Positions 1,627 through 4,979 of a stretch of DNA of 43,203 bases are shown here, in pieces; position 1 is the first letter of the stretch; every line of letters begins with the position of its first letter. The translations under genes were made by a program, and so were the position numbers. Origin of the DNA: Gammaproteobacteria bacterium (GTDB taxonomy: Bacteria; Pseudomonadota; Gammaproteobacteria; Pseudomonadales; Pseudohongiellaceae); NCBI GenBank assembly GCA_030427065.1, contig JAUHWU010000013.1:1-43203 (forward strand), given 5' to 3'. A model generated the notes under the pieces. The model ran no database searches. It worked only from the letters and a program-made list of their open reading frames with translations, and had not been told where the DNA came from.

Positions 1627-4600
1627 TTACTTTTTTTGAATGTCTAAAGTCAGTGCGTCGCCTTCCACATCAAAACCATGCTCACTGGCAGAGTCCTGCT
1701 GAGTGAAACTGGTACACAGGGTTTCCCTGGCAATATAGTCTTTATGTTTTTCAATAGCCCGTCCCAGAGCGTTTCCGGCAGCATAATGAATGATAATGCG
1801 ATCGGTCACATTCAGGCCAATATCCTTGCGGGTTTTCTGGATACGGTTGATGACTTCCCTGGCGAGCCCTTCATCGATCAGCTCTTCATTGAGGGAGCAA
1901 TCCATATCAATGGAAATAAAGCGGTTGGACAGGGCTTCGGTGCCTTCCTTTGCTTCCCGGAACACCAGAATGTCTTCAGTGCTGAAGGTTTCCTCGCCCA
2001 GAGTAATACTGCCATTGTCCTGCAAAGCATTGAGCTGGGCCGCATCCAGATCCTGGATCTGCTGCCGATAGCGATTGAATTCCTTGCCCAGGCGTTTGCC
2101 CAGTACCGGAGAATTCGGCTTGGCAAACAGGGTGATGTATTTGTCTTCCTCGGTGGAGTAGGCGATGGTCTTCACATTCAGTTCAGAACTGATGTAATCC
2201 TCCAGACGCGCGATTTCATCCAGCATGTCCTGGCTTTCATGAATAATGGTAAGTCGGGATAGCGGGATTTTGGTTTTTATCTTGACCTGCTCGCGCTTTT
2301 GTCGCCCCAGCAGAATAATATTCTGCATGCGCGAAACCGCCTGTTCCAGTACCGGCTGTATCAGATCCTGATCGGCTTCCGGGTAATGACACAAATGGGC
2401 GGATTTATGACGGGTTGCGCTATCGCCGGCAAAAACAGCTAGTTCCTGATAGATATGTTCTGCCAGGAAAGGCGCAAATGGCGCCATGCAAACGGTGAGT
2501 TCGCTGATAGTGGTGTAAAGCGTCTGGTAGGCCGCATGCTTGTCCGCGGTCATTTCTTCCACCCAGAAACGTGAGCGGTTCAGGCGGATATACCAGTTGG
2601 TCAGGTCTTCAATGAATTCAAACAGGGCCGGCACCACGTTATAGAGTTTGTATTCTGCCATTTCCCGGCTGACATTGGCTTTGAGTGACTGCAGGCGCGA
2701 CAGAATCCACTGGTCGGTAATGTTTTCCGGGACTACATGGTGGGTGTCGGCTTTCCAGTGATCAATACCGGCATAGGTCTGCAGGAATTTAAACGAGTTG
2801 TACCAGGGCAGCAGGGCGCGGCGCACCATGTCTTTTACGCCACTATCGGTAAAGCGCTGCTCTTCGCCTTTTACCAGACCGGAGTTGATCAGGTACAGAC
2901 GCAGGGCATCGGCGCCGTATTCTTCCATGAGGATGTCGGGAGCGGTGTAGTTTTGCAGGCGCTTGGACATCTTCTTGCCGTCTTCCGCCATGACGATGCC
3001 GTTGACGATAACGTTTTTGAATGAGGGTTTATCAAACAGCGCGGTGCTTAATACCAGCAGGGTGTAAAACCAGCCGCGAGTCTGGTCCAGACCTTCAGCA
3101 ATGTATTCCGCCGGAAAGCCGGCTTCAAACAGGGTCTGATTTTCAAACGGGTAGTGCAGTTGCGCATAGGGCATGGAGCCTGATTCAAACCAGCAGTCCA
3201 GTACTTCTTCCACGCGCCGGTAGACACCTTCTTCACCGTCGATACTAAAGGTAAGTTCATCCACATATTCCCGGTGCAGGTCCTCGACCCGGGTGCCGGA
3301 ATATTTCTCCAGCTCTTCAATTGAACCAATGCAGATTCGATTATCAGTGACATCATTAATCCAGATCGGCAGCGGTGTCCCCCAGTAACGATTGCGCGAA
3401 ATACACCAGTCGATAGCATTGTCGAGCCAGTTGCCCATGCGACCGTCGCGAATATGGTCCGGTACCCAGTTGATTTGCTGGTTGTTGGCCGCGATGCGTT
3501 CCTTGATTTGTTCCACTTTCACATACCAGGAAGGAATGGTGCGGTAGATGATGGGTGTGTCGGAACGCGGACAGAAAGGATAGCTGTGCTGATACACTTC
3601 CTGGATATAGAGCTTTCCTTCGTCCTTGAGTTTGCGAATGATGTCCTTGTCGGCATCCTTGACGTAAATGCCGGCGAAATCTGTGACTTCGTCAGTAAAT
3701 TTACCTTCCAGATCAACCGGGCAAACCAGAGCGTTAATGCCATTGGCTTTCAGGACCCGGAAATCATCCTCACCAAAAGCGGGGGCCTGGTGCACGATGC
3801 CGGTACCAGCTTCAGTGGTGACATAGTTGTCTGCCACCACCACAAACGCACCTTCAGCTTCCAGTTCAGAAAAGTACGGCATAAGTGGTTCATACTTCTT
3901 GCCGACCAGTTCGCTTCCAGCATGTTCGCTAATGACTTCGAGGGACTTGTGTTTGCCAATAGCTTCCAGACGTTCCTGAGCCAGGTAGATATCCCTGCCA
4001 AGCTCAGCGTCATGGACTTTGACATAGGTAATATTGGCATTCACACACAGCGCCAGATTGGAGGGCAGAGTCCAGGGTGTGGTGGTCCAGGCGCTCAAAT
4101 AGGCGTCTTCGTCTTTCAGTTTAAAAAGAACGGTGACCGCCGGGTCCTGCACATCCTGATAATTGGAGCCAGCTTCGAAATTTGACAGTACCGTGCCCAG
4201 GGCGGTAGAAAAAGGGACCACTTTGACGCCCCGGTAGATCAGGTCTTTTTCCCATAGCTGCTTCATCACCCACCAGACCGACTCCATAAAAGAGGGGTCC
4301 ATGGTTTTGTAGTCATTGTCAAAATCCACCCAGCGACCGATACGGGTAATGGTCTTGCGCCATTGCGTGGTATAGCGCTGGACGATGCCGCGGCATTCAT
4401 CGTTGTAGCCTTTCATGCCGAGCTTTTCCACGGCTTCGCTGGCAGACATGCCCAGGGCTTTGTCAATTTCATGTTCGATGGGCAGGCCATGGCAATCCCA
4501 GCCGAAACGGCGCTGCACATAATTGCCCTTCATGGTGTAGTAACGGGGAATAATGTCTTTCAGGGTGGAACCCACCAGATGACCATGATGCGGCAGGCCG

Positions 4601-4761
4601 GTGGCAAACGGGGGGCCGTCATAGAAAATATAGGGAGGATTATCCTTGCTCTGCTCCAGGGACTGCTGGAAAACATTTTCCTTTTCCCAAAAGTTGAGCA
4701 CATCATGTTCTGCCTGAACGAAGGAAAAACTCTCGTTCACTGTTTCTTTAGTATCTGTCAC
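1627..4761 (-). CDS. ileS: Isoleucyl-tRNA synthetase, type 2 (eukaryote-like)
   Basis: Charges tRNA-Ile with isoleucine. The protein has 1044 residues, about 100 longer than E. coli IleS (938). The class I signature reads HHGH (58-61, in TGLPHHGHL) and the second signature KKMSKR ends at residue 601. The CP1 editing domain shows TTTPWTLPSN (about 227) and GTGIVHQAPAFGEDD (about 319). The start (FYDGPPFATGLPHHGH, RRFGWDCHGLP) and the long C-terminus match the eukaryotic/type 2 IleRS class, a class known for mupirocin resistance. The HxGH motif is canonical here, not the swapped GxHH of the described hyper-resistant subgroup. Start is GTG with a weak ribosome site. Transcription appears to begin near 4945 and to pass through a leader peptide and attenuator. 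Usual neighbours of type 1 ileS (ribF, lspA) are absent. Confidence 0.93.
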   Translation of the reverse strand: MTDTKETVNESFSFVQAEHDVLNFWEKENVFQQSLEQSKDNPPYIFYDGPPFATGLPHHGHLVGSTLKDIIPRYYTMKGNYVQRRFGWDCHGLPIEHEIDKALGMSASEAVEKLGMKGYNDECRGIVQRYTTQWRKTITRIGRWVDFDNDYKTMDPSFMESVWWVMKQLWEKDLIYRGVKVVPFSTALGTVLSNFEAGSNYQDVQDPAVTVLFKLKDEDAYLSAWTTTPWTLPSNLALCVNANITYVKVHDAELGRDIYLAQERLEAIGKHKSLEVISEHAGSELVGKKYEPLMPYFSELEAEGAFVVVADNYVTTEAGTGIVHQAPAFGEDDFRVLKANGINALVCPVDLEGKFTDEVTDFAGIYVKDADKDIIRKLKDEGKLYIQEVYQHSYPFCPRSDTPIIYRTIPSWYVKVEQIKERIAANNQQINWVPDHIRDGRMGNWLDNAIDWCISRNRYWGTPLPIWINDVTDNRICIGSIEELEKYSGTRVEDLHREYVDELTFSIDGEEGVYRRVEEVLDCWFESGSMPYAQLHYPFENQTLFEAGFPAEYIAEGLDQTRGWFYTLLVLSTALFDKPSFKNVIVNGIVMAEDGKKMSKRLQNYTAPDILMEEYGADALRLYLINSGLVKGEEQRFTDSGVKDMVRRALLPWYNSFKFLQTYAGIDHWKADTHHVVPENITDQWILSRLQSLKANVSREMAEYKLYNVVPALFEFIEDLTNWYIRLNRSRFWVEEMTADKHAAYQTLYTTISELTVCMAPFAPFLAEHIYQELAVFAGDSATRHKSAHLCHYPEADQDLIQPVLEQAVSRMQNIILLGRQKREQVKIKTKIPLSRLTIIHESQDMLDEIARLEDYISSELNVKTIAYSTEEDKYITLFAKPNSPVLGKRLGKEFNRYRQQIQDLDAAQLNALQDNGSITLGEETFSTEDILVFREAKEGTEALSNRFISIDMDCSLNEELIDEGLAREVINRIQKTRKDIGLNVTDRIIIHYAAGNALGRAIEKHKDYIARETLCTSFTQQDSASEHGFDVEGDALTLDIQKK

Positions 4762-4826
4762 TTGTCTGGCCTGAAAGTATCAATAAAATGAGCGCTCTAT
4801 CTATTTGGTCGCTGACGGCTAAAATA

Positions 4827-4852
4827 AAAAACCCGCCTGGTGGCGGGTTTTT
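4827..4852 (-). terminator. Attenuator terminator in the ileS leader
   Basis: The stem ACCCGCC/GGCGGGT with a 4-nt loop (arms 4831-4837 and 4842-4848) is extended by A/T pairs. Read on the minus strand it is followed by TTTTTTATTTT, so it is an intrinsic terminator for leftward transcription. It sits between the leader peptide stop (4892) and the ileS start (4761), where no other minus-strand gene needs terminating. Its 5' arm in the RNA carries CCGCC, complementary to GGCGG just after the leader stop codon (plus-strand 4883-4887), which gives a possible antiterminator. This geometry is that of amino-acid attenuators such as pheM-pheST. Confidence 0.82.
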
Positions 4853-4891
4853 CAAACTTTATTACAAAGATCTACTATTCATCCGCCCGGA

Positions 4892-4942
4892 TCAGCGCCG
4901 AATAATAAAAATGAAAATGGAATAGATCAGCTTGTTTGTCAT
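4892..4942 (-). CDS. Isoleucine-rich leader peptide of ileS
   Basis: A 16-codon open frame from ATG at 4942 encodes MTNKLIYSIFIFIIRR followed by TGA. Five of 16 residues are isoleucine (one ATC, four ATT), four of them between positions 9 and 14, immediately before the last two codons. Two Phe and one Tyr also occur. The stop is about 40 nt before the terminator stem at 4852 and 130 nt before ileS. This is the composition and placement of an attenuation leader that senses charged tRNA-Ile: a ribosome stalled on the Ile run would free GGCGG to pair with the terminator arm. No good Shine-Dalgarno is seen; the predicted transcript starts only a few nt upstream, so it may be read as a nearly leaderless ORF. 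Confidence 0.78.
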   Translation of the reverse strand: MTNKLIYSIFIFIIRR

Positions 4943-4951
4943 GGGTCGTGA

Positions 4952-4979
4952 AGAATAGACTTTTATTCTTATTTGTCAA
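4952..4979 (-). promoter_or_regulatory. Predicted sigma-70 promoter of ileS(-aroG)
   Basis: On the minus strand a perfect -35 TTGACA (plus-strand 4974-4979) is followed after 16 bp by TATTCT (plus-strand 4952-4957). The expected start point falls about 4944-4946, only 2-5 nt before the leader peptide ATG at 4942. The spacer plus -10 region also forms an inverted repeat AAGAATA/TATTCTT (4951-4957, 4964-4970). The position fits transcription of leader, attenuator, ileS and aroG. Confidence 0.6.

Follow-up and report, generated by a model that had tools for sequence, protein, structure and literature searches.

The region upstream of ileS in the window (the whole 43,203-nt stretch of DNA that was analysed) very probably regulates an isoleucine--tRNA ligase gene of the presumed IleS2 type by ribosome-mediated transcription attenuation in response to charged tRNA-Ile. 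The first-pass annotation had read the region as attenuation of a tRNA synthetase by its own amino acid, and this reading gains support from the conservation of the leader within the family and at distant loci, from a spacing of 14-16 nt between an Ile codon and the 5' strand of the putative antiterminator, and from the recurrence of the element before a cimA-like gene. Our confidence, while high, stops short of near-certainty because 51 of 57 distant loci are without the element and because the antiterminator is only partly supported. As looked for in an attenuator, an Ile-run leader ORF is present (at 27 ileS2 and 16 cimA-like loci), a terminator intervenes between it and the coding sequence, and the target gene belongs to isoleucine metabolism.

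Layout of the ileS upstream region and proposed mechanism

Promoter boxes, an Ile-rich ORF, a GGCGG segment, a terminator and ileS had been claimed in this order on the minus strand, and we find every one of them in place:

4974-4979, minus strand: -35 element TTGACA, read from the sequence; TTGAC is present in 20 and TTG in 26 of the 27 ileS2 leaders (automatic pick)
4952-4957, minus strand: -10 element TATTCT, ending 9 nt 5' of the leader ATG; predicted 5' UTR of about 0-3 nt
4892-4942, minus strand: leader ORF MTNKLIYSIFIFIIRR, with ATG at 4942 and stop codon TGA at 4894-4892
4901-4906, minus strand: proposed control codons ATT ATT, the last one starting 16 nt 5' of segment 2
4883-4887, minus strand: segment 2, the putative antiterminator 5' strand, GGCGG (pairing analysis)
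4853-4874, minus strand: inner hairpin of the predicted antiterminator (predicted fold; a similar one in 5 of the 6 sequences of the genus, L007 being without it)
4842-4849, minus strand: segment 3, the terminator 5' arm AACCCGCC, with segment 2 as alternative partner
4821-4837, minus strand: segment 4, the terminator 3' arm GGCGGGTT and U tract (sequence and alignment)
1627-4761, minus strand: ileS, isoleucine--tRNA ligase, presumed IleS2-type, with GTG start at 4761 and a DUF5915 C-terminus

The leader peptide has 16 residues and five Ile codons (6, 9, 11, 13 and 14). The terminator, AACCCGCC-ACCA-GGCGGGTT, spans 4849-4830, its U tract runs to 4821, and 59 nt separate the end of the U tract from the GTG start of ileS. 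On the 3' side of ileS, on the same strand and after a gap of about 40 nt, lies a gene (521-1585) that we take to encode a DAHP synthase; the two genes may form an operon.

When both strands of the whole window were scanned for a terminator of at least 7 bp combined with an ATG ORF of 10-24 codons holding at least five Ile, including II, one arrangement passed, the ileS leader; the window holds about seven such terminators. None of 3,000 dinucleotide shuffles of the 350-nt upstream region passed the same scan, and since just 1 of the 3,000 contained such a terminator, the shuffles are a test of the terminator rather more than of the ORF. Taken by itself, the promoter match is no better than chance (2 sites in 2.5 kb versus 3.3 in shuffles); support for the promoter comes from the relatives. 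At 26 of the 27 ileS2 loci, 6-9 nt lie between the end of the -10 box and the leader ATG (L061 is off-pattern, and the box of L076 is poor), and TTGAC lies 36-37 nt 5' of the ATG in all 16 cimA copies. With transcription starting about 7 nt past the -10 box, the 5' UTR would measure 0-3 nt and leave no room for a Shine-Dalgarno site; the leader transcript is probably leaderless.

From the sequence, its conservation, the spacing, the complementarity and the recurrence before cimA-like genes, we infer the start site, translation, stalling, ribosome coverage and response to isoleucine that make up the following scheme. RNA polymerase would begin transcribing at the leader AUG or no more than about 3 nt away from it, and ribosomes would load without a Shine-Dalgarno site. 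When Ile-tRNA is ample, the ribosome would translate the Ile run through to the stop codon and cover segment 2 (GGCGG in the window, giving 5 bp; GGUGGGUU in many relatives, giving 8 bp), upon which segment 3 would pair with segment 4 and the terminator would halt transcription before ileS. When Ile-tRNA is scarce, the ribosome would stall once its A site reached one of the last Ile codons, which lies 14-16 nt upstream of segment 2, leaving that segment just free; segments 2 and 3 would then pair, the terminator would be blocked, and ileS would be transcribed. The predicted leaderless start would make this a compact system for asking how initiation at an AUG at the very 5' end stays in step with RNA polymerase.

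A T-box, or another tRNA or metabolite sensor known to Rfam, was considered as an explanation for the region, ileS carrying T-boxes in Actinobacteria according to PMC1262725. No sequence in the window attains the gathering score of any Rfam family, however, and start and terminator lie only about 120 nt apart, on a stretch that is largely ORF; the T-box riboswitch was rejected, and the chance of any such sensor appears negligible.

Distribution of the leader and of the synthetase type

The ileS product of the window (1044 residues) matches TIGR00392 with 960 bits (cut-off 621); the MupA and MupB models give it 750-766 bits, far under their cut-offs of 1900. We take it to be of the IleS2 type, with its DUF5915 C-terminus, and use the label in this sense. 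The gene is the sole ileS found in its own genome. Across the family, an IleS2-type match (E<=1e-200) was obtained in 22 of 137 genomes, belonging to three of eight genera, with a single ileS match in each of the 22; an ileS match at E<=1e-100 was obtained in 125 of the 137, the other 103 of which are without an IleS2-type match at E<=1e-200, and no family genome was seen with both types. The family appears split, genera g1, g2 and g7 having IleS2-type enzymes with the leader versus other ileS genes in g5, g6 and g8. Two putatively viral contigs from IMG/VR (L140 and L141) encode an IleS-like protein with 40-41% identity.

The same layout, a short ORF followed by a GGTGGG-like segment and a CCCGC terminator, is present at all 21 family ileS2 loci having upstream DNA; a 22nd locus, L014, has 11 nt upstream only and stands outside this count. 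Outside the family, it is present at 6 of 57 distinct ileS2-type loci (L028, L029, L061, L062 from an OM182-clade MAG, L076 from Veronia nyctiphanis of the Vibrionaceae, and L086), the element being absent from the other 51. Of these 57 loci, all with upstream DNA, the order search supplied 18 and the class search 14, and 25 are named ones; among L060-L091, six (L060, L063, L065, L066, L069 and L081) repeat other loci and L082 is without upstream DNA, and L092-L139 and the IMG/VR loci L140-L141 lie outside the survey of leaders.

The six distant leaders were first chosen by eye. R1, a covariance model built from the 27 ileS leaders alone and excluding the promoter and the Ile codons upstream of slot -17, added none when run over 58 ileS2-type loci: it found the leader in five already-known loci, each of them an R1-training sequence or a repeat of one. 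This check, which is the one applied to the class-level loci L046-L059, is partly circular, the six distant leaders having trained R1, with L029 represented via its repeat L065 and L028 lying outside the 58. Of the 136 family genomes searched with R1 (E<=1e-4, strict filters), 22 have matches, every one of these being an ileS2 genome whose ileS match is found by construction; the 114 others have none. The third match in G001 corresponds to a tRNA gene plus terminator, and the L246 match in G013 is probably the ileS leader of that genome on a broken contig.

Ile is the commonest residue of the 27 leaders, accounting for 102 of 467 residues after the start (ATT 73, ATA 17, ATC 12), and ATA occupies neither of the two slots nearest segment 2; Phe (49), Arg (48) and Tyr (34) are also frequent. 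Leaders from relatives include MNTHRLCNIIIIIPPFSVG, MKINAIISRIISIISFEMVG and MTYAVHTIIINIIPGGMVG. What the first-pass annotation expected of relatives, a short ORF with Ile as its constant residues together with a terminator, is found in the family and at the six distant loci. A stretch upstream of another ileS2 gene (L031:1368-1436) has promoter-like and CCCGCC terminator sequences without GGTGGG or a clear Ile run; it matches R1 weakly (18 bits) and may perhaps be the remnant of a decayed leader.

A tree of 41 ileS2-type proteins places the leaders in a single starred clade, where 17 of 25 rows have one, as against 0 of the 16 rows outside; the leader label requires at least five changes, three of them forced by starred branches. 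The rows were chosen by hand, leaving out the other family loci, L030, L036-L059, repeats, L082, L083, L088, L089 and L091-L139. A simple reading of the pattern would be one gain of the leader and several losses, and transfer into Veronia, which sits on a long branch of unsure placement, is possible. The leader seems dispensable, since 8 of the 25 rows of the leader clade and 51 of the 57 distinct distant loci are without it. The idea that it is a general feature of ileS was dropped: the 15 family ileS1 loci inspected have neither an R1 match at E<=1 nor an Ile-run ORF, and a single weak terminator-like hairpin was seen among them, at L169. The reading frame upstream of these 15 ileS1 genes is presumably ribF.

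Codon geometry, RNA pairing and recurrence before other genes

At 25 of the 27 ileS2 loci, many of which are close relatives rather than independent cases, an Ile codon starts 14-16 nt 5' of the first base of segment 2, and at 18 it starts exactly 14 nt away. This Ile is the last one of the leader in 23 of the 25, L018 and L029 having another at 5 nt; the two exceptions are L016, with Ile at 17 and Phe at 14, and L027, with its last Ile at 27. The stop codon is found 5-7 nt 5' of segment 2 in 13 loci, 7 nt past its first base in 13 and 12 nt past it in one. A conserved Ile spacing combined with a variable stop position is what one would expect if the stall position counts. The footprint of a ribosome reaches some 12 nt past the first base of its A-site codon, so that segment 2 would just escape a ribosome stalled on this Ile and be covered by one at the stop codon. 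The distance from the Ile codon to segment 2 could serve as a direct, testable ruler of ribosome position.

In the alignment of the 27 leaders, 97.7% of the terminator pair cells are paired, as are 87.5% of those of the antiterminator, and a joint change from G-C to A-U at one position is seen between segments 2 and 3 in four loci and between segments 3 and 4 in five. Covariation between segments 2 and 3 is thin, comprising one two-sided pair, with the covariation score reached by 44 of 500 shuffles and the percentage paired by 41 of 500; the weakness arises partly because the alignment places the six sequences from the window's genus one column out of register. Outside this genus, segments 2 and 3 fold with 7-10 pairs in 20 of 21 loci (4 in L027, a poor antiterminator), the pairing beats 95% of shuffles in 18 of the 21, and the predicted antiterminator is close to the terminator in energy for most loci. 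Within the genus (six sequences), there are 5 bp plus an inner hairpin in five, 13.5-23% of shuffles are as good, and the antiterminator is predicted to be about 4-7 kcal/mol weaker than the terminator. The antiterminator that had been proposed between GGCGG and CCGCC is borne out insofar as the pairing is present, but in the window's genus its 5 bp are no better than those of shuffles.

No conserved protector hairpin between segments 1 and 2 was found; at just 5 of the 27 loci does the best duplex of the ORF with segment 2 rank among the top 5% of codon shuffles. The ileS2 leader would operate with three RNA segments and without such a hairpin, in contrast to trp-type four-segment attenuators, in which the 1:2 hairpin is conserved.

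A search of the window's own genome with R1 returned one other strong match (59.6 bits, E 1.9e-8; the next has E 0.006), the cimA sequences having played no part in training the model:

L227:8827-10576 (contig C167 of the same genome): second copy of the element, leader MNTPMTIIKGIIIQR, before a cimA-like gene

The best match of the cimA-like product is CimA NF042433, at 633.5 bits and under the cut-off of 950, with LeuA models scoring lower. A cimA copy is present in 16 of the 22 family ileS2 genomes (the window's own and 15 relatives), the product having been scored against protein families in the own genome and recognised in the others by its shared N-terminal sequence. The Ile runs of the cimA leaders (II, III or longer) are variously flanked, Phe occurring in 2 of the 16 leaders, and the last Ile lies at offsets of -13 to -17 in all 16, that of L255 being measured from a doubtful GGTGG anchor.

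These copies bear on three other accounts of the ileS leader. The Ile run could matter as peptide rather than as codons, a nascent chain such as ..IIRR or ..IIQH arresting the ribosome on a small molecule, possibly a drug. Arg or Gln follows the run in 23 of the 27 leaders (slots binned by rounding), His or Arg is often next, and the enzyme resembles MupA and MupB, though far under the cut-offs; four distant loci, however, keep the Ile run alone (IIHN, IIIIIPP, IISFEM and IIPGG), and the cimA leaders are Ile runs with varied flanks, which leaves peptide-dependent stalling a slim chance. Phenylalanine or tyrosine might instead be the amino acid sensed, both being common in the 27 leaders (49 and 34 residues, respectively). 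The two control slots (binned by rounding) hold Ile in 22 and 22 of the 27 leaders, however, as against Phe in 4 and 1, and with the Ile runs of the cimA-like leaders, where Phe appears in 2 of 16, the probability of this variant becomes minute. Finally, a constitutive promoter and a partly leaky terminator would by themselves yield low, steady ileS expression, the ORF being incidental; such an arrangement sits badly with the preservation of ORF, Ile run and spacing over wide divergence, with the preservation of segment 2 apart from the terminator, and with the repetition of the design in the cimA copies, and we regard its chance as very slim. Attenuation through charged tRNA-Ile remains the preferred reading.

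Farther afield, R1 has matches at E<=1e-3 in 52 of 390 genomes in the order search and in 20 of 369 in the class search. R1 favours ATT-rich ends, so that these wider matches are partly selected for Ile. Among 50 non-ileS matches inspected (matches having a locus; L189 and L200 are unplaced), we took 22 as Ile-run leaders and 28 not. R1 matches L186, L188, L219 and L261 are ordinary terminators after tRNA genes, the tRNAs being confirmed. The 22 leaders precede genes for ilvA (7), a P-loop kinase (8), SnoaL-like proteins (3), a GNAT protein (1) and cimA (3); products of three ilvA genes, one kinase gene, the three SnoaL-like genes and the GNAT gene were scored against protein families and the others recognised by sequence.

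Before ilvA (threonine dehydratase), Ile-rich leaders, GGTGG(G/A) and terminators are seen at L177, L178, L179, L181, L187, L191 and L197, with TTGAC at the leaderless distance missing in 6 of these 7 copies. The leaders before the P-loop kinase gene end in IIIIP, followed by GGTGGGA and a terminator (L180, L182, L185, L190, L193, L195, L196 and L221); the L185 kinase scores 82 bits against 'DNA topology modulation protein', under the cut-off of 215. The same layout stands before SnoaL-like genes (L201, L203 and L224) and the GNAT gene (L202), whose product has as its sole NCBIfam match the acetyltransferase part of ileS_w_GNAT, at 63 bits and far under the cut-off. The kinase, SnoaL-like and GNAT genes are without a known link to isoleucine. 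A loose look for integron core-site patterns at these copies, short of a proper attC search, gave nothing clear for an origin as integron cassettes.

As a tentative and, on balance, doubtful extension, a leaderless promoter, an Ile-run ORF, GGUGGG and a CCCGCC terminator might form a portable Ile-sensing RNA cassette that defines a small, RNA-only isoleucine-starvation regulon in gammaproteobacteria, placed before ileS2, cimA, ilvA (mostly without the leaderless promoter), kinase, SnoaL-like and GNAT genes. The ileS2 copy might, on the same proposal, also be induced by natural IleRS inhibitors, because IleS2 resembles mupirocin-resistant enzymes.

Comparison with known systems

T-boxes, which bind tRNA directly, control most synthetase genes of Firmicutes, and leader-peptide attenuation of such genes is only occasional elsewhere. 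In gammaproteobacteria, pheM is the leader of pheST. As described in PMC1262725, synthetase genes that lie behind a classical attenuator include pheST, as well as trpS and leuS of Streptomyces, and the ileS leader likewise precedes a synthetase gene. It differs from these in the amino acid, which is Ile, in its IleS2-type target, in its predicted leaderless start and in being without a conserved 1:2 hairpin. The T-boxes that the same source describes for ileS in Actinobacteria (PMC1262725) likewise tie ileS expression to tRNA-Ile charging, but without a leader ORF.

The statement that no leader peptide had been described for a proteobacterial ileS proved too strong: an 'ileS leader CDS (CCNA_03934)' is named in Caulobacter, in a figure legend of PMC4117421 that uses it as a negative control and gives neither sequence nor mechanism. 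It is likewise a small CDS before ileS in a proteobacterium, but in an alphaproteobacterium (PMC4117421). Literature listings contained no title on a leader-peptide mechanism for proteobacterial ileS, and a similar prediction may already stand in the 2004 survey of proteobacterial attenuators that PMC1262725 cites.

Branched-chain leader peptides are likewise described for ilvB of C. diphtheriae (MNIIRLVVITTRRLP) and for ilvG and ilvI of Shewanella (PMC5784534, PMC2659441). The genes behind these ilv leaders serve biosynthesis, and the peptide of C. diphtheriae contains both Ile and Val, whereas in the present leaders Ile dominates and the targets are a synthetase gene and a cimA-like gene. 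The C. diphtheriae ilvB leader peptide is also leaderless, by a mapped start (PMC5784534), and in S. meliloti the trpL leader ORF lies at the transcript 5' end, with an established start (PMC7298713). The latter has Trp codons and trpE(G) as its target, and its start is established, whereas that of the ileS leader is only predicted (PMC7298713).

The ileS leader adds isoleucine and ileS, with comparative support, to the synthetases for which leader-peptide attenuation is proposed. Within the family, the putative device goes with enzymes of the IleS2 type, not with IleS1, and the same RNA logic would couple the supply of synthetase with isoleucine biosynthesis through the cimA-like gene. Three points would make the system unusual: an ORF predicted to be leaderless, the absence of a conserved protector hairpin, and a design common to the synthetase gene and a cimA-like gene.
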